A program made the translations under genes and the position numbers. From a virus: a stretch of DNA of 34,401 nt. The notes under the pieces were generated by a model. It saw only the letters and a program-made list of their open reading frames with translations. It did not search any database and was not told the origin of the DNA. The stretch's first letter is position 1. The number at the start of each line of letters is the position of its first letter. Shown in pieces: positions 1,068-29,811 of this stretch. Location: IMG/VR virus record IMGVR_UViG_3300040856_001660, positions 1-34,401 of that record; one strand, given 5' to 3'.

Positions 1068-2984
1068 TCAGCCCCTTCCCATGAGCAGCTGGGAGACGGC
1101 GCTCGGCTCGACAATAACGAAGCCGTTTTGCGCCTCCTCGAGGAAACTTCCGTCAATAAGTAAGCCCACGAGTTTGCCCTTCTGAGAGGGCTGCACATAT
1201 TTGCTCGCAGAGCTCTCTTTTAAATCAAGGTTATTTATTAAAAACGATAATAACGCGCTCCTCGTTATATACGGCTTCCCCTCGAGCACCTCCTCGCCGC
1301 TACTGCGCCAAGCCTGCGTGATCTGCTCGATGGCCTTGGCCAGCGCCCTCGAGGGGCGGTCCTCATTATCATCCCCATCACACTCCGTTATAAATGGAAC
1401 TGCACTGCTTATTTGCTCCCCCTCATCATCAAACCATCCGGGGATGCTGATGCCATTGAGCTCGACGCAAACGTGCGGCGCGAGCTCCGCGTCTTTGCTC
1501 TTGCGCTGGATCACCTTGATGGCTCCGCCCTTCTTCTTCGGCGGCACCACGCTGATCTCGATGTCGAGAGCTCCGCGCCAGGCGCTGCTCCCTCGAGCTC
1601 GATGCTGCGCGTCCTCGCTGTTTCCGGTGTGGTGCACGAGCATCACCGTGGCGTTGAAGTGGCGAATCAGGGCATCGCAGGCGTCGATGAAGGTTTTGGT
1701 ATCCGCCGCGCTGTTTTCATCCCCCTCCATATGCCGATGCACGGTATCCACGGCGATGATGTCGGGGATGAAGCCGAGGGCCTCCACGGACTCGATGACG
1801 CGCTTCAGACCGTCGGGCCGGTTCAGGTCGATGGCGTCGGTGGAGAGGTAGAAGTCGACATCGGCCACCTGATGGTGGTGCTTCCAGGCGGCGATGCGAG
1901 CTCGAAGGCCTGCATGGCCCTCTCCAGCGAGATAGAGCACGGTGCCTTTGTTCACCTTCAGCCCGGCCCATTCTGGACGCCCGGCGGCAATGTGCAGGAG
2001 CCAGTCGAGGGTCACAAAGGTTTTCCCCCCGCCCGATGGCCCGTGGACCATCATCAGGGCCTGCTTTTGCACCCACATTTTGACCCACCAGTTGATCGCG
2101 GCAGGCTGGGCACTGAACTCATCGGCTTTGACGATCCAGTCATTCGCGGGAGGGGCGAGGGCCTTTGTACCGAGGAGCGCCTCCGCAACCTGCGAGCCCA
2201 GCGCCGCATCGGCTGCCGTGTCCTCCTCTGGCGCATAGCGGGCCACTGAGCGGGCGATTCGCGCCACATCCGAGGCGGGCAAGGGTGGGTCGCAGCGCGT
2301 CTCGTTCGATACCTCAAGGGCTGCCAATATCTCACGCTCGCCCATGCCGTGGTGGCGCATAGCGCCGGCGAGGGAGGTAAGGCCATCATTCCGGTTCCCC
2401 TTGATAAGCTCTGCATTCGTGCTGATCTTCTTTTTCGACCGATTCAGATACTGGTCGAGCCATGGCTGGGGGATGCGGAAAGGCGCAACGCCCTCGAGGG
2501 GATCGTCAGACCCCTCCCACTCATAGCGCTTGCCGTTGATGATCGAGGGATAGGCCACGAAGTATTTGCCGTCACTCAGGAGGTCCACCCCCTGCTCGAG
2601 TTTGCAGGATTTGATGGCGGGGTCATGGAGCGCGAGGTAGTGGTAGCCGCCCCCGGCCGTCAGCTGCGTGGCTCCGTCCTCGTGAGGGCCGGCCAGTTTC
2701 TTCCAGTCGTCCCAGCCATCGAGCCCGCCGTTGCGGGGGTCGACATCGAACACCACCAGGCCGGACTCTTTGCCGGCGGCGATGCCCACGTTATAGGCGG
2801 GGTTTTCGCCCCACCAGCCTTTGATCCTCTCGGGATCGGTCGTCGCATCGTGCACCCCATGCGCCGTTGCCGGCACCTTACGGTTGGGCACGAGCGGCAG
2901 CACTGGCCACCCCATGGCGGCGTAGCGCAGGGCCACCTTTAACGTGATGGGCACCACGTTAGACTGCTCTTTTGATGACGTCAT
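1068..2984 (-). CDS. Primase-polymerase (Prim-Pol) fused to RepA-like helicase
   Basis: This 638-residue replication protein would prime DNA synthesis and unwind the template. Residues about 18-180 match the bifunctional Prim-Pol domain, with the acidic pair in VVFDVDPRNGG (D80, D82) and the GGGYHY motif (111-116). Residues about 195-250 resemble a PriCT linker domain. Residues about 290-500 are a RepA/AAA_25-type helicase core: Walker A GPSGGGKTF (315-323), Walker B IIAVDT (409-414) and the VHHTGNS motif (450-456). The C-terminus is probably a winged-helix-like DNA-binding tail. It overlaps the cro-like gene by 26 bases. It is odd that this gene is on the opposite strand from the other replication and recombination genes. 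An origin-like repeat array follows its stop codon. Confidence 0.9.
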   Translation of the reverse strand: MTSSKEQSNVVPITLKVALRYAAMGWPVLPLVPNRKVPATAHGVHDATTDPERIKGWWGENPAYNVGIAAGKESGLVVFDVDPRNGGLDGWDDWKKLAGPHEDGATQLTAGGGYHYLALHDPAIKSCKLEQGVDLLSDGKYFVAYPSIINGKRYEWEGSDDPLEGVAPFRIPQPWLDQYLNRSKKKISTNAELIKGNRNDGLTSLAGAMRHHGMGEREILAALEVSNETRCDPPLPASDVARIARSVARYAPEEDTAADAALGSQVAEALLGTKALAPPANDWIVKADEFSAQPAAINWWVKMWVQKQALMMVHGPSGGGKTFVTLDWLLHIAAGRPEWAGLKVNKGTVLYLAGEGHAGLRARIAAWKHHHQVADVDFYLSTDAIDLNRPDGLKRVIESVEALGFIPDIIAVDTVHRHMEGDENSAADTKTFIDACDALIRHFNATVMLVHHTGNSEDAQHRARGSSAWRGALDIEISVVPPKKKGGAIKVIQRKSKDAELAPHVCVELNGISIPGWFDDEGEQISSAVPFITECDGDDNEDRPSRALAKAIEQITQAWRSSGEEVLEGKPYITRSALLSFLINNLDLKESSASKYVQPSQKGKLVGLLIDGSFLEEAQNGFVIVEPSAVSQLLMGRG

Positions 2985-3147
2985 CTCGATCTGCCTTCAG
3001 CTCCCCGTTAGTGATCACCTCGAGCTCGAACTGCCGAGCCATCGGTGGCTTTTCCCCCCAGCGGCCGATCGCGTGCGGCCAAACGTCGAGCGCTCGAGCG
3101 AGCGCTTTTTTGCCACCAAAGTGCTGGATGGCTTCCATAGTTGTCAT
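2959..3147 (-). CDS. Cro/YdaS-like transcription regulator
   Basis: The 62-residue protein has a helix-turn-helix over about residues 12-32 (GGKKALARALDVWPHAIGRW), followed by the PPMARQFELEVITNG segment typical of Cro/DicC/YdaS-like phage regulators. It is expected to dimerise and bind operators in the adjacent divergent control region, where repeated GTGTTGA half-sites occur. It is the first gene of the leftward unit and overlaps the Prim-Pol start, so both are probably cotranscribed. No CI partner is present. ATG 3147 is chosen; an internal ATG at 3138 is possible. Confidence 0.75.
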   Translation of the reverse strand: MTTMEAIQHFGGKKALARALDVWPHAIGRWGEKPPMARQFELEVITNGELKADRDDVIKRAV

Positions 3148-3163
3148 ATCTTCGATCCCTTCC

Positions 3164-3218
3164 GTGTTGATGTGAGGTGTTGACAGCCTACAGCGTTTGG
3201 GCTTAGGGTTTCAACACC
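3164..3218. promoter_or_regulatory. Candidate operator half-sites in the divergent control region
   Basis: GTGTTGA is repeated directly at 3164-3170 and 3177-3183. The second copy, extended to GGTGTTGA (3176-3183), forms a perfect inverted repeat with TCAACACC (3211-3218). The sites lie between the cro-like gene and the rightward operon and bracket the best rightward promoter. They are natural candidates for the Cro-like protein, which could then control both directions. The repeats are seen; the ligand is inferred. Confidence 0.5.
3180..3209 (+). promoter_or_regulatory. Candidate early rightward sigma-70 promoter
   Basis: A perfect TTGACA -35 box lies at 3180-3185, with TAGGGT at 3204-3209 as the best -10 match, 18 bases away. 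The -10 is poor (3 of 6), so activation or a variant sigma contact may be needed. The predicted start would be about 50 bases before the ATG at 3264. The -35 overlaps an operator half-site. Confidence 0.45.
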
Positions 3219-3263
3219 CCAGCCGGTAAGGTGCCAACCGGGGACAAAGCAAAGGAGGCCAAA

Positions 3264-3947
3264 ATGGCCATAACACTGAAACGCACGGGCGACGTGTCTG
3301 CCCTTCAAGTGCGGCTCCTCGTCTACGGGGCCGCTGGCGCGGGGAAAACCTCGCTGATCCCAACCCTGCCCGCTCCGCTGGTGCTCAGCGCTGAAGGTGG
3401 GCTGCTCTCGATCAAGGCGAATGATGTGCCCTTCATCGAGATCAAGAGCATGGACCATCTCAAGGAAGCCTACCAGTGGCTGACGGAGAGCGAGGAGGCG
3501 GCGCAGTTTCAGTCCGTCGCCCTCGACTCGATCTCCGAAATTGCCGAAGTGGTGCTGGCGGAGGAGAAGGCCACCGCCAAAGACCCCCGGCAAGCCTACG
3601 GCGCGCTCCAAGATCAGATGCAGATGATCATTCGCGCCTTCCGCGATTTGCCGGGAAAGCACGTCTACTTTTCCGCGAAGATGGAGAAGGCCCAGGACGA
3701 AACTGGCCGTATCCTGTACGCGCCCTCCATGCCCGGAAATAAGCTGGCCCAGCAGCTGCCCTATTTCTTCGATGAGGTGCTCGCCCTCCGGGTCGAGAAG
3801 GATGCCGAGGGCAACACTCAGCGCGCCCTGATGTGCGCATCGGACGGCCTCTGGTCCGCCAAGGATCGCTCCGGTTCGCTCGATGCCTGGGAGCCTGCCG
3901 ACCTCGGTGCAGTCATCGCCAAGATCATGCGAGGAGATGCGTCATGA
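3264..3947 (+). CDS. AAA_24/Sak4-like RecA-fold ATPase
   Basis: The 227-residue P-loop ATPase has Walker A GAAGAGKTS at residues 22-30 and a Walker-B-like strand in QSVALDSISE. It matches the phage nucleotide-binding AAA_24 group, which includes Sak4-type single-strand annealing/recombination proteins. The role is most likely RecA-like recombination or replication together with the DUF669 protein and the nuclease downstream. The ATG at 3264 is chosen because AAAGGAGG (3251-3258) lies 5 bases before it; an in-frame start at 3231 has no such site. It is the first gene of the rightward operon and overlaps the next gene in an ATGA. Confidence 0.82.
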   Translation: MAITLKRTGDVSALQVRLLVYGAAGAGKTSLIPTLPAPLVLSAEGGLLSIKANDVPFIEIKSMDHLKEAYQWLTESEEAAQFQSVALDSISEIAEVVLAEEKATAKDPRQAYGALQDQMQMIIRAFRDLPGKHVYFSAKMEKAQDETGRILYAPSMPGNKLAQQLPYFFDEVLALRVEKDAEGNTQRALMCASDGLWSAKDRSGSLDAWEPADLGAVIAKIMRGDAS

Positions 3948-4462
3948 CCTTTGAACTGAAGCCTTTGGCCGCGAGCGTTCACGCGGCAGCGATCGAGGCG
4001 CCGAAGCCGGTGCCGACCAAAGTGTGCGCAAAATGCAAAGAGCAGAAAGCGGAGGGCGCCTTCTACAAAGCCTCCCGCTCTAGCGATGGGCTCCAAAGCT
4101 ATTGCGTCGAGTGCACCAAGAAAGTCTCGGCCGAGAGCAGCGCCAAGCGCGCCGAGAAGCGTCGTCGCTCTGAGGCGGCTCGGCGTGGAGCTCTAAAGCG
4201 CTGGGGGAAGGCCAAGGAGCAGGCTGCACCCGATCCCGTGAACAACCCGAGCCACTACCAGCAAGGCGGCATCGAGTGCATCGACGCCATGGTGCAGGTG
4301 TTCGGGGAAGAGGCCGTGCGGACCTATGCGCGGATAAACGCCTTCAAGTATCAGTGGCGCGCGCCCTACAAAGGCAAGACCGCCGAGGATTACGAGAAGG
4401 CGCTCTGGTATCTGCGCTTCGCAGCTGGGGATGATCCCCGCAAGGATCGGTGCCATGGTTGA
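3944..4462 (+). CDS. Zinc-ribbon plus DUF3310 protein
   Basis: The 172-residue protein has two parts. Residues about 28-60 hold two CxxC knuckles (CAKCKEQK and CVECTKK) that would bind one zinc, followed by a very basic linker. The C-terminal part, from NNPSHYQQGGIECIDAM onward, is a DUF3310 domain, the family that includes the T7 gp1.7 nucleotide kinase. A role in nucleotide metabolism or DNA binding is plausible but unproven. It starts in the ATGA overlap with the ATPase gene and overlaps the next gene by 8 bases. Confidence 0.78.
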   Translation: MTFELKPLAASVHAAAIEAPKPVPTKVCAKCKEQKAEGAFYKASRSSDGLQSYCVECTKKVSAESSAKRAEKRRRSEAARRGALKRWGKAKEQAAPDPVNNPSHYQQGGIECIDAMVQVFGEEAVRTYARINAFKYQWRAPYKGKTAEDYEKALWYLRFAAGDDPRKDRCHG

Positions 4463-4640
4463 TCGCAATGCCTTCGCAGCGTTTGCCATGCAGGCGCTAA
4501 TCAAGCATCAGCCCGAGCTCGTGAACAGCGGCGTTAATGATGACCACCAGCTGGGCCTCATCGCCTGGCAGGCGTTCCGCATCGCCGACGCGATGGTGAA
4601 AGAAGCCCGAGTGCAGGAGGTGAAGCATGGCGACCGCTAA
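4455..4640 (+). CDS. Small hypothetical phage protein (61 aa)
   Basis: The short alpha-helical protein has no membrane segment and no motif I recognise. The ATG at 4455 is preferred over an upstream in-frame ATG (4431) because it has an AAGGA-like site about 8 bases upstream and gives the 8-base overlap typical of this operon. It overlaps the next gene by 14 bases, so the two are likely coupled. Function unknown; its position suggests an accessory role in recombination or replication. Confidence 0.65.
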   Translation: MVDRNAFAAFAMQALIKHQPELVNSGVNDDHQLGLIAWQAFRIADAMVKEARVQEVKHGDR

Positions 4641-5025
4641 AATCGCCGAGATGATCAACGCCTGGAACGAAGCGAAGCAGGCGGAGAAGGCGTGGCAAGA
4701 CCGACGCCGGATAATCGAGGATGAGATCGCCGAGCACCTGATCCTTGGTGAGCTCGACTCCACTCAAACCATCACCGCTGGGCCTTGGAGGATGCGGGTC
4801 ACCCAGCGCGTCAATCGCCGCATCGACACCGATGCACTGCAAGAGCTCGCGGCGGAGCACGGGCTGCAAGCCCACCTCGCCGACCTTTTCCGCTGGAAGC
4901 CGGAGCTCAACCTCCGCCAGTGGAATGACGCGGATGAATCCATCCGCAAAGCCCTCGAGGGGGCAATCACCTCGAAACCCGGGCGGCCTTCTTTCGCCCT
5001 CGTCAATGATGAAAAGGAGCAGTAA
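4627..5025 (+). CDS. Conserved-type phage protein of recombination operon (132 aa)
   Basis: This soluble protein is predicted to begin with a charged helical, possibly coiled-coil stretch (residues about 1-40, rich in E, K, R). A more compact domain with a strand-like TITAGPWRMRVTQRVNR segment follows. Proteins of this shape often sit between the Sak4-like ATPase and DUF669 genes in phages, but I know no assigned function. The start has a very strong GGAGGTGA ribosome binding site inside the preceding gene. Two bases separate it from the DUF669 gene. Confidence 0.7.
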   Translation: MATAKIAEMINAWNEAKQAEKAWQDRRRIIEDEIAEHLILGELDSTQTITAGPWRMRVTQRVNRRIDTDALQELAAEHGLQAHLADLFRWKPELNLRQWNDADESIRKALEGAITSKPGRPSFALVNDEKEQ

Positions 5026-10308: not shown

Positions 10309-11498
10309 TGCTCTCCCTCTCGAATCATTTCTGGCGTGATGATGACACGGCCGCACTCGCCGTGCTTCCGATGGTAGGTGATGACCTGCGCCTCGCGGCC
10401 GGACATATAACCGCCCCTTGATGCGTAGGCGTCGGAGGCCGCCAGCGTCCGGTGCTGCTGAATCACCATGAGGTTTCCTTCGAGCTCGTGCCGGTGATGG
10501 AAGTGCCCCATGTGCCCATAGCTGTGCCGCGTCCGCCCGAACACCTCTCGAAACTTTGCCACAAAAACGTCGTCGACGGCCGTGATCTTGCGCTTGTGGC
10601 CATGGTGGAAGAAGAGGGACGTGTCTCCCCACTCGAAGCAATAGTAAGGGTCCGGCGACTGATCCACCGTCACTCGAGGCTCGTCCTCGTAGAGCGCCGC
10701 CAGCCACTCGCGCATCCAGATCGAGCTCGTGGGGTTGTGATTGCCCTCGGCCTCGATGACGTGCACCCACGGATACTTATCGAGCAGCATCTGCATGATC
10801 TGCCGCCGCACGCGAATCCAGAGCCGGACGATCCGGCTGAATCGGTCGGAGGCATCGAGGAGGTGCTTGGAAGCCGGCGTGAGCGGCTCCATTCCGTCGA
10901 AGTGCAGATCATCGCCCAGGAAACAGAGTATCGCTCCAGCGGCGCCTGGGGCCTGCTCGATGGCCCTCTCGAACCACCCCACGAGCAAGCGCTCAGCGAT
11001 GGCCGTGTCCCAGTCGTCGCCCCGCGTCTCCTCGCCCCACGCCAGCATCCCGAAATGGAAATCGGTGATGACGTGCAGATTCACGAGCTCTGGATCGGTG
11101 GCAACCGGCTTCGATTTGTTTCGCGGCTCCCGGGGAATCTCTTCCTTGCACGCCTCGATGAAGTCGAGCGCCACCTGGCGGAGCGCCTCTTGATCGGTGG
11201 CGGTCTTGACCCATTGCAGTTTTGGCTGCCCGTCGTCGCCGTAGAGCGTGCTCACGCCTTTGACGGCGAAGGGCGTAGTGGTGGGGTGCCTCATGTCCGC
11301 CTCGGGCGCGTAGCCCATCTTGGCGGCTCTGAGGCGTACACGCTCGACGGCCTGGCGGCCGTTGTTTCGATGCTCCCCCAGAGCTCGGGCGGCTGCCTGC
11401 ATCGAGCCGTGCTCGATGGTCGCGCTGATCCACTTTCGCTCCGTGGAGCTCACGCAATAGCTGAGCAGCTCGGGATCAAGTTTCATGGGTGCAACCAT
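10305..11498 (-). CDS. Calcineurin-like metallophosphoesterase with N-terminal HTH
   Basis: The 397-residue protein has the full metallophosphoesterase signature: D146-x-H148 in TDFHFG, GDD (195-197), GNHN (252-255), HHGHK (298-302) and GHFHHRH (331-337). These residues would hold two metal ions. The N-terminal 65 residues contain a helix-turn-helix-like segment (SMQAAARALGEHRNNGRQAV) often joined to this enzyme in phages. The substrate is unknown: DNA, a nucleotide or another phosphodiester. The start at 11498 sits in a TGATG overlap; ATG 11522 and 11486 are alternatives. It is unusual for an enzyme to lie beyond the lysis genes at the end of the late unit. Confidence 0.85.
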   Translation of the reverse strand: MVAPMKLDPELLSYCVSSTERKWISATIEHGSMQAAARALGEHRNNGRQAVERVRLRAAKMGYAPEADMRHPTTTPFAVKGVSTLYGDDGQPKLQWVKTATDQEALRQVALDFIEACKEEIPREPRNKSKPVATDPELVNLHVITDFHFGMLAWGEETRGDDWDTAIAERLLVGWFERAIEQAPGAAGAILCFLGDDLHFDGMEPLTPASKHLLDASDRFSRIVRLWIRVRRQIMQMLLDKYPWVHVIEAEGNHNPTSSIWMREWLAALYEDEPRVTVDQSPDPYYCFEWGDTSLFFHHGHKRKITAVDDVFVAKFREVFGRTRHSYGHMGHFHHRHELEGNLMVIQQHRTLAASDAYASRGGYMSGREAQVITYHRKHGECGRVIITPEMIREGEQ

Positions 11499-11689
11499 CA
11501 GCAGTCCACCTCGATGCCGCACATGGCCTCAAAGGCGGCGTTGTGGCCGATGATCTGCTTGATGGTATCTTCGGTGTCGGCTCTGCTGGCGCAGATGGGC
11601 TCGAACACGGTGCAGGCAGGATCAGTCCCTAAAGGAGCGCTTGCGCAGCCCCCCAGGATCATCACCGCCGCGAGCATTGCGACGCGCAT
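11498..11689 (-). CDS. Putative outer-membrane spanin-like lipoprotein (Rz1-like)
   Basis: The 63-residue protein has a short signal sequence and lipobox (MILGGCAS, Cys at about 15), so it should be a lipoprotein. The mature part contains FEPICASRADTEDTIKQIIGHNAAFE, a pattern common in small phage lipoproteins of lysis regions. Its first 68 bases overlap the 3' part of the upstream membrane protein gene in another frame, the arrangement of Rz/Rz1. It is not proline-rich as classic Rz1 is. The outer-membrane spanin role is inferred from lipobox and nesting. Confidence 0.65.
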   Translation of the reverse strand: MRVAMLAAVMILGGCASAPLGTDPACTVFEPICASRADTEDTIKQIIGHNAAFEAMCGIEVDC

Positions 11690-11825
11690 CGATTCCCCTC
11701 CTCACGCTTTCAGCCATCTCCCGTAGGCTCTCCGATTCCACGTCCGCCTTGCCGTGCCTGGCGCCTACGCTGTAAGCCTTCCAGAGCGCGGCCAGGACGG
11801 CCGTGATGATTAGAAATTCAAGCAT
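11622..11825 (-). CDS. Putative inner-membrane spanin-like protein (Rz-like)
   Basis: The 67-residue protein has an N-terminal transmembrane helix ([20 protein letters not shown]) followed by a charged, probably helical periplasmic part. This is i-spanin topology, though shorter than lambda Rz (153 aa). Its 3' end overlaps the lipoprotein gene by 68 bases and its start overlaps the upstream gene by 8. Together the pair would disrupt the outer membrane at the last lysis step. The shortness leaves doubt. Confidence 0.55.
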
Positions 11826-13161: not shown

Positions 13162-15426
13162 CTAGAGCGTGTTAGACAGGGCCGAGCTCGTCGTCGGCGA
13201 GGTGGTCGCCGTCTCGATAAAGGTCGGGATGATTACGTCGATTCCGTTCGAGGTGTTGACCACCGTCTTCATGTGCAAGCGCTGGACAGTGGTCGAGGTG
13301 CCGTTGTTAAACGTCAGAAATGGCAGGTGCACCACATCGCCCACGATCTGCGGCTCGCAGGGCGTGATTGATGCGGACTCGAAACGCGCCAGCCGCGCCG
13401 TGGCGGTCACCACTCCCGCCGGGCTCTTGCGCAGCGTATAGGCCACCACGCCGCCGCCATTTGCCGCCACGGCGCTGCCAGAGCCTGCCGAGAAATTGAT
13501 CTCGACGGTGGCGCTCTGCTGGTTAGCCGTGAATTCAACCTGCACCGCGTCATAGTAGGTGTTCTCGGCCATGGAGCGAATCGAGTGATAACGCTCCTCG
13601 GCGAAAGCCTTGTCCCGCTGATCGCTGAGCTCGCGCCCCCGGGTGTTGCTGATTACTGGATCGGGAGCGGTGCCGCCGAAGGTGGTGGCCGAGGTGGTCG
13701 GCGTGAAGGTGCTGGTGCTCTTGGTGTTGCTGCGATTGATGCGAGCAAAAATGTGCACCTCGTGGGATGCCGTCCCCGTGCCGTTGTTATAGCTGCGCAT
13801 CATCAGTTTGGCTTGGGTGCCCGTGCCGGAGGCGATGTAGGGCTTCAGGGGAATGAAATCATTCGAGAAGCCATTTCCCTCGGTGCCGTTAAAGTTGGCA
13901 CTCAGGACGTTTGCGGTAAGGTTGCCGGCCTCATCCTTCTTGATGAAGTAAGACACCTTCCCGCCAGCGTCAGCTGCGACGCCGGTGAAGCCGGCCACGG
14001 CGAAGTTTAGATCGACGACCATGGATTCGTTATTGCCGGTGAAATCGATGGTAGCGACCTCATAGACGGCGCCGGATGAGGTAGCGTCGGCGAGGTTTGC
14101 GATCGACCAGTAGGTTTCATCGAAGAAAACGCCGTCATTTTGGTCGACCAGCTGGCGGGTCTGGAGCCCGCTGCCTGCCACAAAGTCCCGAAATCCGTTG
14201 GTCGAGCCGGTCGCGCCGGAGCCAGTAAAGAGCCAGTTTCGATCGGTGAAGGCGCCATCGAGCGTGCTGCCGCCGAAGGTGTTATCGCGAATCTCAAAGA
14301 AAGATTGCGTCACCGTGCCATCGGTGGCCACGATTGCCGGGGTCGGCGAACTGTCCAAATATAGCCAGTCGACGCCGCCGTCGCTCACGGTGCCCGTGAG
14401 GTGCGTGGGAGGCGTGGCACCCGTGGTGCCTGCGCCCTGCGCCTCATAGAAGGAAATCACGCCGCCGTTGTTATAGCGAAGGATTTGACCATCGGTCACC
14501 ACAAATCCCGCCGACCACTGGCCATGCTCGCCCGGCTCGAACACCATCCCCCGATAGGAGGTGTGCGTGGTCGTGTGCACCTGCCCGCCGTTCGAGGTGT
14601 TGTCTAGCTGCTCCATTAGGATGCCAGGCGTGCCCTCGGATTTGTGCAGAAAGCAATCGTGAATGGCGTTATCAAGGGAGGCGTTATCGTGGATAAACGC
14701 GCCGCCGTTGATGCGGTTCCCGATAAGGAAGCCTTGGATGTGTCCGATGGTCCAGGCGTTAGCGTAGCCATGGAGCCAAATGCCCGTGTTCACGTCAGTG
14801 ATGCGGAGGCCGTGCACGTTGTTGAAGTAGACAGCCCAGGTATCGCCGATCTGAGGCGCCTGGCAATGCAGGCCGATGTCGCGATCACCCGTGGTCTGGC
14901 CGTAAGCCTGCGGGCCGCTGATGTTGAAATCTTGAATGGTGTTATAGCTGACGTCAGCCGAGCCGACCGAGGACATCGAAAACATCCCCACCAGCACCAC
15001 GCCGTTGGGGCAGCGATTCTGAGAGGCGATGGTGGAGGTGGTCTGGCCCTGGCCTTTGAGGGTGCTGTATTGCCCCTTCACCCAAACCACCGGGTCGGTG
15101 TTCGCCGAGCTCGCGCTGTAGCGGGTGAGGGAGGTGTCAGCTGCGAGCTCTAAGCACTTCCGGTTCCCGATTTCGATCATGGTGTCGCAGCGATAGGTGC
15201 CCGGAGGAACAAAAACGTGGGCGTTCGCATCCAACGCGGCTTGGATCGCGGCGCTCGAGTCATTGGTTCCGGTCGGGTCGGCCCCATAAGACCGAGCGTC
15301 AGTGACCGGCATCAGCGTCGAATAGGCGACGTTTTTGGTGACGGTGCCGTCATTGATGATTAGCTTGTCAGTGGAGGCGGGGCCTTCCGCCAGCGTCGGC
15401 AGTGCTGAAATTTTAACGGTTGGCAT
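13162..15426 (-). CDS. Tailspike with pectate-lyase-fold beta-helix
   Basis: The 754-residue receptor-binding protein begins with a short anchor (MPTVKISALPTLAEGPASTD) typical of phage fibres that plug into the virion. A pectate-lyase-3 type N-cap follows (DARSYGADPTGTNDSSAAIQAALDA, then VFVPPGTYR at about 70-80). Next is a right-handed beta-helix region rich in Gly, Asn and Thr to roughly residue 430, then two related C-terminal beta domains (the YE/YDAVQVEFTAN-type segment appears twice). Such spikes often bind or cut surface polysaccharide, so depolymerase activity is possible. No catalytic residues can be named with confidence. Confidence 0.82.
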   Translation of the reverse strand: MPTVKISALPTLAEGPASTDKLIINDGTVTKNVAYSTLMPVTDARSYGADPTGTNDSSAAIQAALDANAHVFVPPGTYRCDTMIEIGNRKCLELAADTSLTRYSASSANTDPVVWVKGQYSTLKGQGQTTSTIASQNRCPNGVVLVGMFSMSSVGSADVSYNTIQDFNISGPQAYGQTTGDRDIGLHCQAPQIGDTWAVYFNNVHGLRITDVNTGIWLHGYANAWTIGHIQGFLIGNRINGGAFIHDNASLDNAIHDCFLHKSEGTPGILMEQLDNTSNGGQVHTTTHTSYRGMVFEPGEHGQWSAGFVVTDGQILRYNNGGVISFYEAQGAGTTGATPPTHLTGTVSDGGVDWLYLDSSPTPAIVATDGTVTQSFFEIRDNTFGGSTLDGAFTDRNWLFTGSGATGSTNGFRDFVAGSGLQTRQLVDQNDGVFFDETYWSIANLADATSSGAVYEVATIDFTGNNESMVVDLNFAVAGFTGVAADAGGKVSYFIKKDEAGNLTANVLSANFNGTEGNGFSNDFIPLKPYIASGTGTQAKLMMRSYNNGTGTASHEVHIFARINRSNTKSTSTFTPTTSATTFGGTAPDPVISNTRGRELSDQRDKAFAEERYHSIRSMAENTYYDAVQVEFTANQQSATVEINFSAGSGSAVAANGGGVVAYTLRKSPAGVVTATARLARFESASITPCEPQIVGDVVHLPFLTFNNGTSTTVQRLHMKTVVNTSNGIDVIIPTFIETATTSPTTSSALSNTL

Positions 15427-15994: not shown

Positions 15995-17329
15995 TCATGA
16001 AAAGGTGACGGTATCGGATGCACCGGCTGCGGTGATTGTGTAGACGGTGTCTGTTCCAACCGTGGCAGAGGTTTGGGTGACGCCTGCGGTGAAAGACGCG
16101 GAGTAGCCAGTGGGAACCTTTAGGATAACCACGCCGGAGCCGCCTGCGCCCGACGCGCCACTGCCGCCCCCTGCCCCGCCGCCGCCGCCTGTATTGGCGG
16201 TCCCGGCAGAAGCTGGGGAATTGAATGCGCCAGTACCGCCCCCGTGAACAGCTATGCCGGTCGTCCCTCCAGTGCCGCTTCCGCCACCAGCTCGGCCAAC
16301 CGGAGAACCCGTAACGCTAGAAACGATCCCTAAGCCGCCGTCACCGCCGTCAGAACCTCCAGAAACATTCCCGTTATCACCAGGGCCGCCAGCACCGCCA
16401 CCGCCGCCCGAGCCGCTGGATGAGCCATAAACAATTCTGCCGGTGCCTCCAGCATAACCCTGGCCAGCGGTTCCGGTGCCGCCGGGAGACGTTAGCCCAG
16501 AGGTTCCTCCAGTGCCTGCGCCGCCGCCACCTGAGCCGCCAGTAGCGCCAGCGATAAGATTGAAGTCTCCACCTGATCCGCCGCCTGTGGAAGTTATCGA
16601 CGCAAAAACCGAGTCAGCGCCATCCCCCCCGCGATTGCCGCGAACAGCAGGAACACCATTCCCTCCTGCGCCAATAATTACGGAATACGGCGTGCCGAGA
16701 GCAAAAGTAAACGCCGACTCTGTAACCGCTCCACCGCCAGACGATTCACCAGTGACAGAGGATCGATACCCTCCGGCTCCGCCAGCACCACCAGACCCAC
16801 CGCCATTGGTATCTACGCTTCCCCCGCCGCCTCCAGCGATAACAATATATTCAAGCTCTTGCGGTATCGGCCCGTCGCTCAGGAATTGCCAATCGGTGCC
16901 GTCGTAGCCCTCATATCGGCTCTCGGTCGTGTTAAACCGCAAGCTCCCAGTCGAAGGCGAAGCGGGCCTCTGCGCCGTCGTACCCCTCGGCACGATCAGC
17001 TCGCCGTTGAAGATGATGGGGCCACTAAACGTGCCGCCCGTCACGGGGACGGCGGAGGCGATGGAGAAAACATCATAGACCACGATTTCGACGACATCCC
17101 CGGCACTGAGGGCCGTGAGGTTGCCGATGGTGTTCGCCGTGGCGGTGTCGTAGTCGGTGCCGGCCACGAGGATGACGCCATTGAGGGCGACATCGACATA
17201 GTTGCCATCGGAAAAGGCCAGGGTGTTGCTCGCATCGTCAGCGCCGGAGAGCGAAGTCTCGCCCCCAGTCGCCGTGAAATAGTATCGATTGCGAACGCCT
17301 ACCCCAGGCGCTTTCCCGATGTAGCTCAC
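15995..17329 (-). CDS. Glycine-rich tail fibre/adhesin, copy 1
   Basis: The 444-residue protein has three parts. Residues about 1-90 are a beta domain common in phage fibres (RNRYYFTATGGETSLSGADD...). A linker repeat follows (TTAQRPASPSTGSLRFNTTE, then YEGYDGTDWQFLSD at about 138-151). A long Gly-rich region from IVIAGGGGGS to about 400 comes next. The end is a conserved cap (SASFTAGVTQTSATVG...AAGASDTVTF). Gly-rich stretches of this kind form polyglycine-II helix sandwiches in adhesins such as phage S16 gp38, so a tip adhesin is likely. The cap and linker are shared with 17703-18785, and the cap also with 28891-29811. Confidence 0.72.
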   Translation of the reverse strand: MSYIGKAPGVGVRNRYYFTATGGETSLSGADDASNTLAFSDGNYVDVALNGVILVAGTDYDTATANTIGNLTALSAGDVVEIVVYDVFSIASAVPVTGGTFSGPIIFNGELIVPRGTTAQRPASPSTGSLRFNTTESRYEGYDGTDWQFLSDGPIPQELEYIVIAGGGGGSVDTNGGGSGGAGGAGGYRSSVTGESSGGGAVTESAFTFALGTPYSVIIGAGGNGVPAVRGNRGGDGADSVFASITSTGGGSGGDFNLIAGATGGSGGGGAGTGGTSGLTSPGGTGTAGQGYAGGTGRIVYGSSSGSGGGGGAGGPGDNGNVSGGSDGGDGGLGIVSSVTGSPVGRAGGGSGTGGTTGIAVHGGGTGAFNSPASAGTANTGGGGGAGGGSGASGAGGSGVVILKVPTGYSASFTAGVTQTSATVGTDTVYTITAAGASDTVTFS

Positions 17330-17702: not shown

Positions 17703-18785
17703 TTAAGCCACTCCAAAAGTCACTGTGTCACTCGCCCCAGCGGCGGTAATAGTATAAACGGTGTCCGATCCAACGGTGGAGGAGGTTTGCGTCACCCCTG
17801 CGGAGAATGTTGCGGAGTAGGCCGAGGGGATGCGGAGAATGACTACGCCGGAACCGCCGGAAGCACCTCGTGCAGGATCAGCGCCGTCAAGATTTCTTAC
17901 GCCGCCACCACCGCCGCCGCCCAAATTTGCCGTTCCTGCCGTGGCGTTTCCTGTTGGGTTGGTATAGTTTCCATTGTAACCGCCACCAGTGCCCCCTCCG
18001 CCTGCTCCTCCAACCCCGACTGTCCCATAGATGCCAGTGCCATACCCAAGCCCGCCACCGCCGCCACCACCAGCATAAAAAACGCTAGCCCCCGTGATGG
18101 AGGAGGACAGACCGTCGCCACCGTTCCCCGAGGCGTAATTTCCGCCATTCAGACTTCCCGGGTCACCTGCCGCACCCGCTCCACCACCGCCACCGGCTCC
18201 CTGCTCGGTACTTCCGGCAGGGCCTCCATCATTTCCTTGCCCTGCGATCCCTGCACCGCCCGACAGAATTCGGTATCCAGAACCGCCGCCAGAACCGCCA
18301 GCCGAGCCAATCCCAGCCCCAGTGCCGCCACCACCACCACCCGATGAGACGATAGTGCTAAAGGCGGAAGAAGCGCCGTTCAACCCGCCGCCATTGTTTC
18401 CGCCAGCAGAGCCTCCGGCGCCAACGGTCAGGGCGTAGGCGACAGAAAGGGCAAAGTCTTGCGTGCTGGCCAACATCCCACCAGCGCCACCCCCGCCTCC
18501 ACCGACGTAACCGCCGGTATTGGAATACCCCCCTCCGCCACCACCGCCAGCGATCACAAGATATTGGGCGGAAACGCTGGGCGCATCGCTCAGAGACGCC
18601 CACTGGAGCCCGTTGTATCCCTCATACCGCTGCTCGGTGGTGTTGAATCGAACACTCCCCGTCGCAGGCGAAGCAGGGCGCTCAGCGGTGGTGCCAGCAG
18701 GGAGCACCATGCGGCTGGTCACCGTGAGCTCATCGGTCGAGGCGATCGCTAGAGAGACTGCTGGCGGCTGTCCGAGATAGGCCAT
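17703..18785 (-). CDS. Glycine-rich tail fibre/adhesin, copy 2
   Basis: The 360-residue paralogue of 15995-17329 lacks that protein's first beta domain. A short anchor (AYLGQPPAVSLAIASTDELT) leads into the same linker (GTTAERPASPATGSVRFNTT, YEGYNGLQWASLSD), the YLVIAGGGGGGG stretch, about 230 residues of Gly-rich repeats, and the cap YSATFSAGVTQTSSTVG...AAGASDTVTFGVA. Two adhesins with the same architecture but different Gly-rich cores suggest alternative receptors or a heteromeric tip. It overlaps the next gene by one base. Confidence 0.72.
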   Translation of the reverse strand: MAYLGQPPAVSLAIASTDELTVTSRMVLPAGTTAERPASPATGSVRFNTTEQRYEGYNGLQWASLSDAPSVSAQYLVIAGGGGGGGYSNTGGYVGGGGGGAGGMLASTQDFALSVAYALTVGAGGSAGGNNGGGLNGASSAFSTIVSSGGGGGGTGAGIGSAGGSGGGSGYRILSGGAGIAGQGNDGGPAGSTEQGAGGGGGAGAAGDPGSLNGGNYASGNGGDGLSSSITGASVFYAGGGGGGGLGYGTGIYGTVGVGGAGGGGTGGGYNGNYTNPTGNATAGTANLGGGGGGGVRNLDGADPARGASGGSGVVILRIPSAYSATFSAGVTQTSSTVGSDTVYTITAAGASDTVTFGVA

Positions 18786-26432: not shown

Positions 26433-28883
26433 TTAGCTGCCGCCGTCGTTGCCGAGGCAGAAGCTCACAGCGTTGCGCACTGCCACGTCGCAGCTCTGGA
26501 GAGCCACCACGCGCACGGTGCCGCTGGTGCTGGCGGTGTAGGGGTCGACCACGATGTCGAGGCCGCCGAACATACCGACCAGAAGGTCGCTGAAGTTGCC
26601 GAAGTAGGCGTCGCCGGAGGCTGCCTGGTTGGACACGATGGCGCGGTAGCCATTGATCGTGCCGCCGGGCTCGACCACAAACTGAGCCGTATTGCTGGCC
26701 TTCTCGGTGGTCTTGAGTGCGCCGTACATAGCCGCGCCCATGATGTAGGCCAGATTGCCGAGGAGCGCGTTGTCCTCTGCGACCTTGGTTTCCATATCAA
26801 CCACCTGAGCGAAGGTCGGCACGAGATCAGGAGCGGTTCCGAAGTCAACGGTGTTGATGCCGGAGGTGTTCTTGATCCCGGTGGGCTGGCCGCTGGAGCC
26901 GCTGCCGGCGAGCGCGCCAAGGTCGATTGCGAGAGCAATGGCCTGTGCGAGATCGTCGCGGATCAGGGCCTCAACGTCGAGGCTCGACTGGATGAGCAGC
27001 TGACGGGTGACGTCCGTGTGAGCACCGAGGGTTTTCGGCGTCATGGACACGGACCCCACGGTCATCTCGGACTCAGCAGAAGCCCCACCTTCCGTTGCAA
27101 TCCACCCTGCGGCAGCTGCTGCGGTTTTCTTGGGGATCTTCACGTCGCCGGAGAGGCCGTTGAGCATCCGGGCGCCGGCTTGCATGACAGAGCTCGAGTT
27201 GCGGAGCACGTCGATGAAGTCGCCACCACGGAAGTCGTCGGTGAACAGAGCAGCCTCGTCGGCGCTGTTCAGATCACGCTTCCAAGTGCGGAGCACTTCG
27301 GCCGGGAGCAGGATGCCCTGAGCGGCGCGGCCATACTGCTCGGCAGCGGCGCGGGAGCACTCAAACTCGAACGCAGCGGCTTCTTGAGCGCGGCGGTCGG
27401 TCGGGTTAGCGAGAGCGTGAATGGCACGGATGATGGAGAAGCGCTGCTGCTCCTTCTTGGTCATGCCAATCTCTTGGGCCTCGAGGGCGCGCTCGGAGCC
27501 GATCACTTCGAGAAGCTCACCACGGAACTCTTCGACGCTCTTGCCCTCTGCGATTGCCTTGCGAGCCATCTCGCCTTGATTGTGCCGAGCACCGAGCTCG
27601 ACGATTTGCGCAGCACTGCGCTGTGCGGCTTTGCGGGCTTCCGCCTCGACTGCCGCGATGTCCACTTGATCGGTCATGATGACCTCCTTGGGATTATTGG
27701 ACTCTACGGTGATTTGAGGAACGTGCCCGCTGCGACCAACGCCGACTGTCACGTCAGCGGGGATCGAAACGATGCTTGCCTCGACGGGGCGCCAGGACTT
27801 GGCCACATAGGTGTCCTTGTCCTTGCGCTCCAGCTTGTTGATGGCGTAGCCGATTGAGACATTCGCACGGATACCGTCCACCACATCATCGAAGACCTCG
27901 CGGGCCAGTGGGCCTTTTCCAAAGCGCACCGTCGCACGGAGTCGCCGTGCCGAGCCATCAAGGTCAACCGATTCAATAACGCCAATTTGCTGCTCGGGGT
28001 CGTGATCGAGCAGAAGCGGGGCGCGTCCGCTGTTCAGAAAACTTAGGTCAATCGCGTCTTCGGAATGCTCCAGCACCTCGATGCCGAAGCTGCGCTCGAC
28101 CGGCTCCTCGGAGGAAACAGCCATGCGCACCCGGCGCTCGTCAGCGTTGACGGCGCCAGCCTCGAGCTCCATAGCCCGATGCACCACCTCGGGCGCTGCC
28201 TTGCGCTCCTCCTCCATGTTGCCGCGATCCTCCGCCGGCTCGATGGGGTCGATCTTCGTCAGGGTCGAGAAGCGATGACCCACCATCACGTCGGAGGGCT
28301 GGCCTTCGCTGTCGAAGATGCGAATCAGGGCAGCGGGATCATCGGGCTCTCCGTTGATCACCACGTCAGTGTCGGGCACCTCGATCTGGCCATCGCGCAC
28401 GATTTCCTCGATCTGGCCCCGGGCCGTTCCGCCAGCACTGTCCCAGCGAACGAAATCGCCGATGCTGAGCTCGTCAGGTTCTGCGCGTTCCATGGCAGAT
28501 GCCTCCTCAGTATTTTCGTCATTATAACCGCGATCCGCATCATCTGCGGCATCCATACGCTCGACAATGTTATCGGCCCAGGTCTTGCCCGCGTCGCCGC
28601 CCCAGAGGGCCCACGCGATGCGCCCAGCGCTCGGATAGCCCTCCTCGCCGGGGCTGAAGCCTTCGCCCTGCTTATCCACCTCATGACGCGCAAAAAACGA
28701 TTTCATGCGCTTCACGGTGTCTAGGCTGAGGCTCTCGCGGTTGCTGATGTCTCGAGCTCGAGCCACGCCCACCTCGGTGCCGCCGCGCCCGTACTCCTCG
28801 CGCCACTCCAGGCCTCGCCTTGCCTCGGCCACCATCCCATCGGTGGGGGTGGTGCTTATCTCGACGCCTTTATAAGTGGCCAT
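26433..28883 (-). CDS. Prohead protease-major capsid protein fusion (HK97 fold)
   Basis: The 816-residue protein joins up to four modules. Residues 5-110 are a phage N-terminal domain (RRGLEWREEYGRGGT, RIAWALWGGDAGKTW). Residues 135-212 are an HVA1/DUF2945-like domain. Residues 255-390 are an HK97-type prohead protease with H294 in LLLDHD and S343 in NVSIGY, probably with E368. From about 403 onward it is a delta domain plus HK97 capsid (LLPAEVLRTWKRDL, then GWIATEGG, QPTGIKNTSG). The protease should mature its own chain. Strong ribosome binding sites precede two internal ATGs (M131 and M403), so separate shorter products are likely. Confidence 0.9.
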   Translation of the reverse strand: MATYKGVEISTTPTDGMVAEARRGLEWREEYGRGGTEVGVARARDISNRESLSLDTVKRMKSFFARHEVDKQGEGFSPGEEGYPSAGRIAWALWGGDAGKTWADNIVERMDAADDADRGYNDENTEEASAMERAEPDELSIGDFVRWDSAGGTARGQIEEIVRDGQIEVPDTDVVINGEPDDPAALIRIFDSEGQPSDVMVGHRFSTLTKIDPIEPAEDRGNMEEERKAAPEVVHRAMELEAGAVNADERRVRMAVSSEEPVERSFGIEVLEHSEDAIDLSFLNSGRAPLLLDHDPEQQIGVIESVDLDGSARRLRATVRFGKGPLAREVFDDVVDGIRANVSIGYAINKLERKDKDTYVAKSWRPVEASIVSIPADVTVGVGRSGHVPQITVESNNPKEVIMTDQVDIAAVEAEARKAAQRSAAQIVELGARHNQGEMARKAIAEGKSVEEFRGELLEVIGSERALEAQEIGMTKKEQQRFSIIRAIHALANPTDRRAQEAAAFEFECSRAAAEQYGRAAQGILLPAEVLRTWKRDLNSADEAALFTDDFRGGDFIDVLRNSSSVMQAGARMLNGLSGDVKIPKKTAAAAAGWIATEGGASAESEMTVGSVSMTPKTLGAHTDVTRQLLIQSSLDVEALIRDDLAQAIALAIDLGALAGSGSSGQPTGIKNTSGINTVDFGTAPDLVPTFAQVVDMETKVAEDNALLGNLAYIMGAAMYGALKTTEKASNTAQFVVEPGGTINGYRAIVSNQAASGDAYFGNFSDLLVGMFGGLDIVVDPYTASTSGTVRVVALQSCDVAVRNAVSFCLGNDGGS
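27675..27689 (-). promoter_or_regulatory. Internal ribosome binding site for the capsid domain
   Basis: Inside the fusion gene AAGGAGG (27689-27683) lies 5 bases before an in-frame ATG (27677-27675), encoding M403 of the fusion. This is as strong as any ribosome binding site in the window. It would yield a 414-residue protein starting MTDQVDIAAVEAEARK, the usual beginning of a capsid delta domain. Confidence 0.75.
28491..28506 (-). promoter_or_regulatory. Internal ribosome binding site before protease half
   Basis: GGAGG (28506-28502) lies 8 bases before an in-frame ATG (28493-28491), M131 of the fusion, within GAGGAGGC. It could start a product lacking the first domain and comprising HVA1-like, protease and capsid regions. 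Weaker support than the M403 site. Confidence 0.5.
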
Positions 28884-28890
28884 AAATCAC

Positions 28891-29811
28891 CTATGCGAAG
28901 GTCACGGTATCGGACGCGCCGGCGGCAGTCACTTCATACACGTTATAGCCGGCGGGGGTGTGAAGAGTGTGAGTAACTCCAGCGCTAAAGGTGGCCGTCA
29001 CGGTGTCAGGGACGCGGATGATGACGACGCCAGAGCCGCCTGCGGCACCAGTGCCAGAGATCCCACCCCCTGCTCCACCACCGCCTCCGGTATTTGCAGT
29101 ACCAGCCGTGCCAGAAACCACGGCACCACCAGCTCCCCCACCGCCAAGGCCGCCAGCGCCGCCAGCATGGGAAAAAGAGCTACCGCCCCCACCGCCTGCA
29201 CGGTAAATACCAACACCAGTGATGTAGGACTGAACGCCGTCACCGCCATTACCAGCTCGGACGCTGGTGACCGAATTTCCGCCAACTTGAGCGGCACCGC
29301 CACCACCACCACCGTGATAGGTATAGCCGCCAGCATTGCTGCCTGCGCCACCGTTAAAGCCTTGATCCGCAGTGCCCGTACCAATGTTTGTTCCGCCAGC
29401 GTCTCCACCACCACCAGAACCACCGTTGTTGTCTCCGACCGGCGTTCCAGCACCTGCACCACCTCCGCCACCGCCGATAGAGACAATGGTGTCGAAGGTT
29501 GAATCGCTTCCAGGGTTGCCGTAAGGCGCAGGGCTCGTGGTATGAGGTTCAGCCGCGCCGCCAGCACCAACCGTGATGGTGTACGCTGTGCCTAAAGCAA
29601 TGCTTAGCGCAGATTCAGCAGCCGCGCCGCCGCCAGAAGATTCACCCGTGACAGACGAGCGGTAGCCACCAGCACCGCCGCCACCGTTGTGGCGCGTTGA
29701 ACCGCCACCTGCGCCAGCGATAACAAGGTACTCGGCGACAAAATCAGGAACACCCCGAGCCCGCCTCACCGGCCCCCGAAGCCCTCGAATTGGCGAGAGG
29801 CCGTTAAGCAT
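28891..29811 (-). CDS. Glycine-rich adhesin paralogue in the head module
   Basis: The 306-residue protein begins MLNGLSPIRGLRGPVRRARG, then has YLVIAGAGGGS, the GGYRSSVTGESSGGGA segment shared with the fibre at 15995-17329, about 180 residues of Gly-rich repeats, and the cap VTATFSAGVTHTLHTPAG...AAGASDTVTFA. By family it is a polyglycine-II-type surface adhesin. It is out of place: it lies between the portal and capsid genes instead of with the tail fibres. A head fibre or capsid-attached adhesin is a reasonable inference. It overlaps the upstream gene by 8 bases. Confidence 0.68.
   Translation of the reverse strand: MLNGLSPIRGLRGPVRRARGVPDFVAEYLVIAGAGGGSTRHNGGGGAGGYRSSVTGESSGGGAAAESALSIALGTAYTITVGAGGAAEPHTTSPAPYGNPGSDSTFDTIVSIGGGGGGAGAGTPVGDNNGGSGGGGDAGGTNIGTGTADQGFNGGAGSNAGGYTYHGGGGGGAAQVGGNSVTSVRAGNGGDGVQSYITGVGIYRAGGGGGSSFSHAGGAGGLGGGGAGGAVVSGTAGTANTGGGGGAGGGISGTGAAGGSGVVIIRVPDTVTATFSAGVTHTLHTPAGYNVYEVTAAGASDTVTFA

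Follow-up and report, generated by a model that had tools for sequence, protein, structure and literature searches.

A conserved in-frame start codon at the protease-capsid junction of a fused phage head gene points to nested translation initiation

Results

Gene and domain layout

The window analysed here is a 34,401-nucleotide stretch of viral DNA (IMG/VR record IMGVR_UViG_3300040856_001660), the minus strand of which carries, at 26433..28883, a protease-capsid fusion gene of 816 codons that runs from ATG1 to its stop without an internal stop codon and specifies a full-length product of 87.4 kDa. The genes of the neighbourhood are ordered as small and large terminase, head-tail joining protein, portal, two small genes, the fusion gene, connectors and tail. 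A reading of the sequence alone had divided the frame into an N-terminal phage domain, an HVA1/DUF2945-like domain, an HK97 protease with H294 and S343, and an HK97 capsid, and Pfam, PHROG and NCBIfam searches bore this division out. In all of the 80 closest IMG/VR relatives the matching region forms one frame, cut in some by contig ends; a sequencing error or frameshift as the origin of the fusion was ruled out by the identical single frame in independent contigs.

Module 1 (residues 1-118; 28530..28883, minus) is an all-helical phage domain, matched by PHROG 2859 over residues 11-116 and modelled by AlphaFold2 (AF2) with a pLDDT of 90.6. Foldseek found no fold match for it in the PDB with E<=0.001, and hits in BFVD show it fused in other phages to prohead proteases, portals and XkdF-like proteins. 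A linker predicted to be disordered (residues 119-134; 28482..28529, minus; pLDDT <50) leads to an Hva1_TUDOR domain (formerly DUF2945; residues 142-211; 28251..28460, minus), which was delimited by Pfam PF11160 (E 1.4e-6 over 142-188), an AF2 beta domain and the relatives' alignment, and which is missing from some relatives. The HK97/U35-type prohead protease follows (residues 245-372; 27768..28151, minus), with a match to PF04586 (Peptidase_S78) above cut-off over residues 277-377 and with the catalytic H294 and S343 invariant in an alignment of 24 relatives. A Foldseek search with the whole model gave weak E-values only (best 0.009); the top hit of the protease was the T4 gp21 capsid protease 5jbl (probability 1.00, E 0.009), and herpes assemblins were also among the weak hits.

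A second linker predicted to be disordered (residues 373-409; 27657..27767, minus; pLDDT <50) overlaps the beginning of a scaffold-like delta region (residues 403-542; 27258..27677, minus), for which AF2 predicts helices at 410-468 and the end of which was placed by homology to the R4C structure 8gta. The remainder, approximately residues 543-816 (26436..27257, minus), is the mature HK97-fold capsid, matched by PF05065 (E 2.3e-42 over 555-812) and by PDB 8gta (E 1.8e-48 over 546-808). Since the capsid half of the whole-protein AlphaFold model, built with 24 sequences, was poor, the cryo-EM chain of R4C was used for the capsid.

The protease and capsid together (residues 235-812) match PHROG 617, named major head protein, with an E-value of 1.4e-147; PHROG 4523 is named major head and protease protein. 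NCBIfam matches comprised a prohead protease/MCP fusion model, a proheadase model and an HK97 capsid model, the last being the only one above its curated cut-off. The cut-off of NF045541 (525 bits) was not reached by the window protein, which scored 144 bits over residues 245-503 only. Judged by these profiles, the protein is inside PHROG 617 but outside the narrow NF045541 model. Protease-capsid fusions are thus already a known family (NF045541, PHROG 617/4523; PPpW-3, Murka, ep3, VP882, S-CBS3 and R4C), which has the same order of protease, delta region and capsid and is homologous over residues 235-812. The family descriptions consulted speak of a single product; the clade of the window adds module 1 and often the Tudor domain.

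Elsewhere in the window, three proteins encoded on the minus strand (28891-29811, 17703-18785 and 15995-17329) have in common a C-terminal domain of the PHROG 2295 type, with 59-63% identity over the last ~80 residues (GSGVVI..., TAAGASDTVTF). One of these copies separates the portal gene from the capsid gene; in most annotated relatives those two genes lie directly next to each other or overlap. A 754-aa frame at 13162-15426 (minus) and a 424-aa frame at 10452-11726 (plus) had no PHROG match.

Internal start sites in the fusion gene

An AAGGAGG Shine-Dalgarno (SD) site (27683..27689, minus; predicted energy -12.6 kcal/mol) lies 5 nt before ATG403 (27675..27677, minus), the predicted internal start of a free delta-capsid protein of 414 aa and 43.3 kDa. 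The sequence-only reading had put this site at the very beginning of the delta region, and both its position and the AF2 layout agree: M403 sits 7 residues ahead of the first delta helix, inside the disordered linker. A GGAGG site (28502..28506, minus; -12.1 kcal/mol) precedes ATG131 (28491..28493, minus) by 8 nt, and ATG131 is the probable internal start of a Tudor-protease-capsid product of 686 aa and 73.1 kDa. Both methionines thus fall between folded modules, in stretches predicted by AF2 to be disordered. The predicted SD:anti-SD energy of M1 is -6.7 kcal/mol, and the strongest SD among the 26 listed gene starts of the window is -10.8, so that all are weaker than those of M131 and M403. 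An SD of -12 is reached by 1.2% of the 1029 ATGs in the window; that the AAGGAGG-ATG403 pair is more than such a chance occurrence follows from the conservation of the M403 site.

Conservation of the M403 start in the window clade

The junction codon is ATG at 51/51 unique sites of the window clade, with a median SD of -8.8 and with 98% of the sites at or below -4.5. At the sole exception (L025) an upstream Met had been wrongly picked, and the true site has GGAGG at -9.3. The linker peptide differs from sub-group to sub-group (NPKEVI, PQEGQK, DFKEDK, YVEDSK, SNGEKT and KIEVNL, for example), and its length is not fixed either; even so, a GGAG, GAGG or AAGG motif reappears 5-10 nt ahead of the start. 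Loss of the internal site in relatives that keep the fusion would have told against the sequence-only reading; instead, an M403 start was found in every close relative and in most distant ones. Of all Met columns in the protein, those of M131 and M403 alone show an SD of -4.5 or below wherever the ATG is kept; other conserved Met columns have SD medians of +1.4 to -5.3.

When each site was recoded synonymously for the same peptide, using the gene's own codon usage, the real SD was stronger than the recoded one in the pooled set (-8.27 vs -5.52), with a p-value of 7e-9 that is nominal because shared ancestry is ignored. Single genes gave p-values of 0.02-0.65 each, much of the SD strength following from the Lys/Glu linker peptide, and single-gene recoding was rejected as too weak to serve as proof by itself. 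At the level of these nominal p-values, the comparison supports an M403 start kept beyond the demand of the linker amino acids. Moreover, glutamate just upstream of the junction is encoded by GAG in 73% of cases, vs 45% elsewhere in the gene (stratified z 4.3).

In every clade the mRNA at the junction has far less structure than the remainder of the gene (window clade, -8.0 vs -11.4; other clades, -4 to -6 vs -13 to -15). Compared with recoded versions, it is less structured outside the window clade but slightly more structured within it, which counts against a nested start.

The M131 start

Of 40 unique linkers that join module 1 to the protease, 39 contain an ATG with a GAGG-type SD of -5 or below (median -6.2). 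The position of this ATG shifts with inserted domains, and an apparent lack of conservation of M131 was rejected as an alignment artefact once the search was extended over the entire linker. Control stretches of equal length match the linker result 15% of the time, and M223, in the linker between Tudor and protease, has a fair SD yet is kept in only 12%, showing that acidic linkers readily yield SD-like sequence. The proposal that GGAGG and M131 form a further internal start is therefore supported less strongly than that for M403, chance being a bigger factor; from these comparisons, M131 is probably an internal start.

Distant relatives and cyanophages

The distant set consisted of four further viral scans, one genome scan, which gave 3 prophages only, and isolated phages. 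An SD and ATG occur at the protease/delta junction of CRP-406 (-9.3), CRP-823 (-8.8), VP882 (-9.4), R4C (-9.5) and CRP-811, and with weaker energies in RcCronus (-6.0), phiHAP-1 (-5.9), ep3 (-6.0) and PPpW-3 (-6.1). Mica, Alexa and Murka keep the junction Met with a weaker SD, and the weak SD of Murka and its relatives counts against a nested start. A minority of the distant fusions, L102, L116 and L123 for example, had no clear junction start. In no locus, close or distant, that extends beyond the protease was the capsid split from it, the short fragments stopping at contig ends. The annotation of roseophage CRP-823 (L086) gives the N-terminal module a gene of its own (1998-2714), which overlaps the protease-capsid frame (2674-4926); in CRP-821 (L097), a relative of CRP-823, everything lies in one 974-aa frame.

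In the cyanophage-like clades, with 52 and 35 unique sites, the junction Met is retained with no SD before it, also in members whose linker is extended by 20-30 residues. Four cyanophages lack the Met (L171, L179, L196 and L199), and all 4/4 have GTG at exactly that codon, for which the chance is ~0.006 given their own valine codon usage. In S-CBS3 an SD is found at 43% of starts and at 29% of all ATGs, little above background; a junction without an SD fits a phage that uses the SD so little. The junctions of the cyanophages avoid SD-like sequence relative to recoded versions (-0.09 vs -0.67 for L136-L214; -0.03 vs -1.04 for L220-L294). The cyanophages seem to start at the junction without an SD, and, going by these sequences, the family may offer a natural comparison of SD and non-SD initiation.

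Discussion

A proposed model of nested initiation

Conservation of the junction start across relatives supports the original proposal of nested initiation from one gene, and we consider it very probable that M403 gives a free delta-capsid protein beside protease-bearing subunits made from M1 and probably M131. One late mRNA with one long frame would contain nested translation starts. Initiation at M1, and probably at M131, would yield capsid subunits in which protease and accessory modules precede the delta region, and initiation at M403 an ordinary HK97-type subunit composed of delta region and capsid, free of protease. The delta-capsid part, identical in long and short subunits, would let them assemble together, and the tether would thereby bring the protease into the procapsid, where it would trim the delta regions and itself to leave a shell of ~274-residue subunits.

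The last step is consistent with the structure of R4C, whose virion shell has T=7 and 415 copies of the subunit (PMC10276861). The shell chain in 8gta corresponds to residues 362-629 of a fused frame of 629 aa, whose own internal start is M189 (SD -9.5). Because the R4C shell consists of the capsid part only, the mature shell of the fusion family appears to be without protease and delta region, like that of HK97. By homology, the mature subunit of the window phage would comprise about residues 543-816 (27.9 kDa), and the delta region is expected to be removed at maturation.

Protease-bearing subunits would presumably be few and free subunits many. The SD of M403 is stronger than that of M1 in the window; this was rejected as proof of the ratio, as it holds for only 66% of 38 relatives, and SD strength alone does not set the ratio. 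In a prohead interior with an assumed radius of 20-22 nm, residues 1-402, at 44.1 kDa per subunit, would occupy ~50-66% of the volume if all 415 subunits carried them, and the delta regions a further 17-23%. On this estimate a shell of full-length subunits only is unlikely, though possible. It can be suggested more tentatively, at somewhat less than even likelihood, that the gene is three-tiered, with M1, M131 and M403 giving three subunit classes with one capsid C-terminus. The start sites would then grade the copy numbers of the portal/protease-associated helical module, the Tudor-protease and the bare capsid, in an SD-dependent manner in proteobacterial phages and an SD-independent manner in cyanophages.

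Alternative explanations

The closest competitor is a propeptide with a single start, in which every subunit is full-length, carries a protease and releases itself by linker cleavage. The homologue in Murka was indeed called a single 684-aa propeptide of protease, scaffold and capsid by its authors (PMC10892653), and the phage records examined have one full-length capsid gene annotated, except for CRP-823 with two. A single start, however, leaves unexplained why ATG or GTG is fixed at one point of a hypervariable linker and why the SD is kept across different peptides, and it has to accommodate the interior filling estimated above with its assumed radius; we regard it as improbable. Less probable still is that the site is a by-product of linker chemistry, with GAG and AAG codons of an acidic, Lys-rich linker giving an SD by chance and the Met being structural. 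Recodings of the same peptide are often still SD-like, and M223 illustrates the same tendency. Nonetheless, the real sites beat their recodings in the pooled test, the other conserved Mets have a weak SD whereas that of M403 is present in 100% of the contexts that keep the ATG, and cyanophages, whose Pro/Thr-rich linker is very unlike the others, have retained the start codon.

Two further explanations deny the site a present role in initiation, and both seem to us very improbable. The junction might be a relic of separate protease and capsid genes that were fused by loss of a stop codon, leaving the old ribosome-binding site and start unused. The site does lie where, from the domain layout, a separate capsid gene would begin, and the CRP-823 annotation has module 1 as a gene of its own, upstream. 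A relic would be expected to decay, yet start and SD persist despite replacement of the peptide, down to ~30-40% protein identity to the window; the exchange in the four cyanophages that lack the ATG is to GTG only; and none of the relatives was found with separate protease and capsid genes. Alternatively, a strong internal SD might pause the ribosome, giving the protease time to fold ahead of capsid synthesis, with no initiation at all, for which its location exactly between folded domains would be apt. A pause requires no start codon, whereas the start codon is the best-conserved element of the junction, even where there is no SD.

Comparison with known systems

Nested initiation at M403 would have a precedent in the C/Nu3 region of lambda, where one frame gives a large protease-bearing product and a smaller product of an in-frame internal start, both for head assembly (Shaw and Murialdo 1980, as cited in PMC8508860). 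In lambda the internal product, Nu3, is a scaffold and the capsid protein E has a separate gene, whereas in the window the internal product would be the delta-capsid itself. The C protease of lambda belongs to the S49 family; no homology of the window protease to S49 gpC was encountered, and Pfam assigns it to S78. Lambda C/Nu3 is therefore a functional analogue, not a homologue, of the window gene. What would be expected of a lambda-like arrangement, an internal start codon and ribosome-binding site conserved in relatives, was found here.

In herpesviruses, the assemblin protease-scaffold (UL26) and the scaffold alone (UL26.5) have the same C-terminus and assemble together in the procapsid; the short form is made from a separate transcript and is a scaffold, not a capsid shell protein. 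If the nested start is true, the window gene would parallel both systems. HK97 itself, with gp4 (protease) and gp5 (delta-capsid), has the same protease and capsid families and the same maturation logic, but there the two are separate genes, while in the window gene the protease is tethered, and which start is used would govern the ratio.

Nested starts are unannotated in the fusion-family phage records examined, and no description of nested initiation in protease-capsid fusions was found in the open-access papers searched; within that literature, a conserved nested start that frees the capsid from the fusion is undescribed. If every one of ~415 subunits bore a protease, the interior of the procapsid would be crowded and the dose of protease uncontrolled. 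A nested start, conserved over hundreds of phage contigs, would be a simple answer to the problem of the protease:capsid ratio in fused genes. Thus, the single "major capsid protein" annotation of the fusion family is predicted to hide at least two products.
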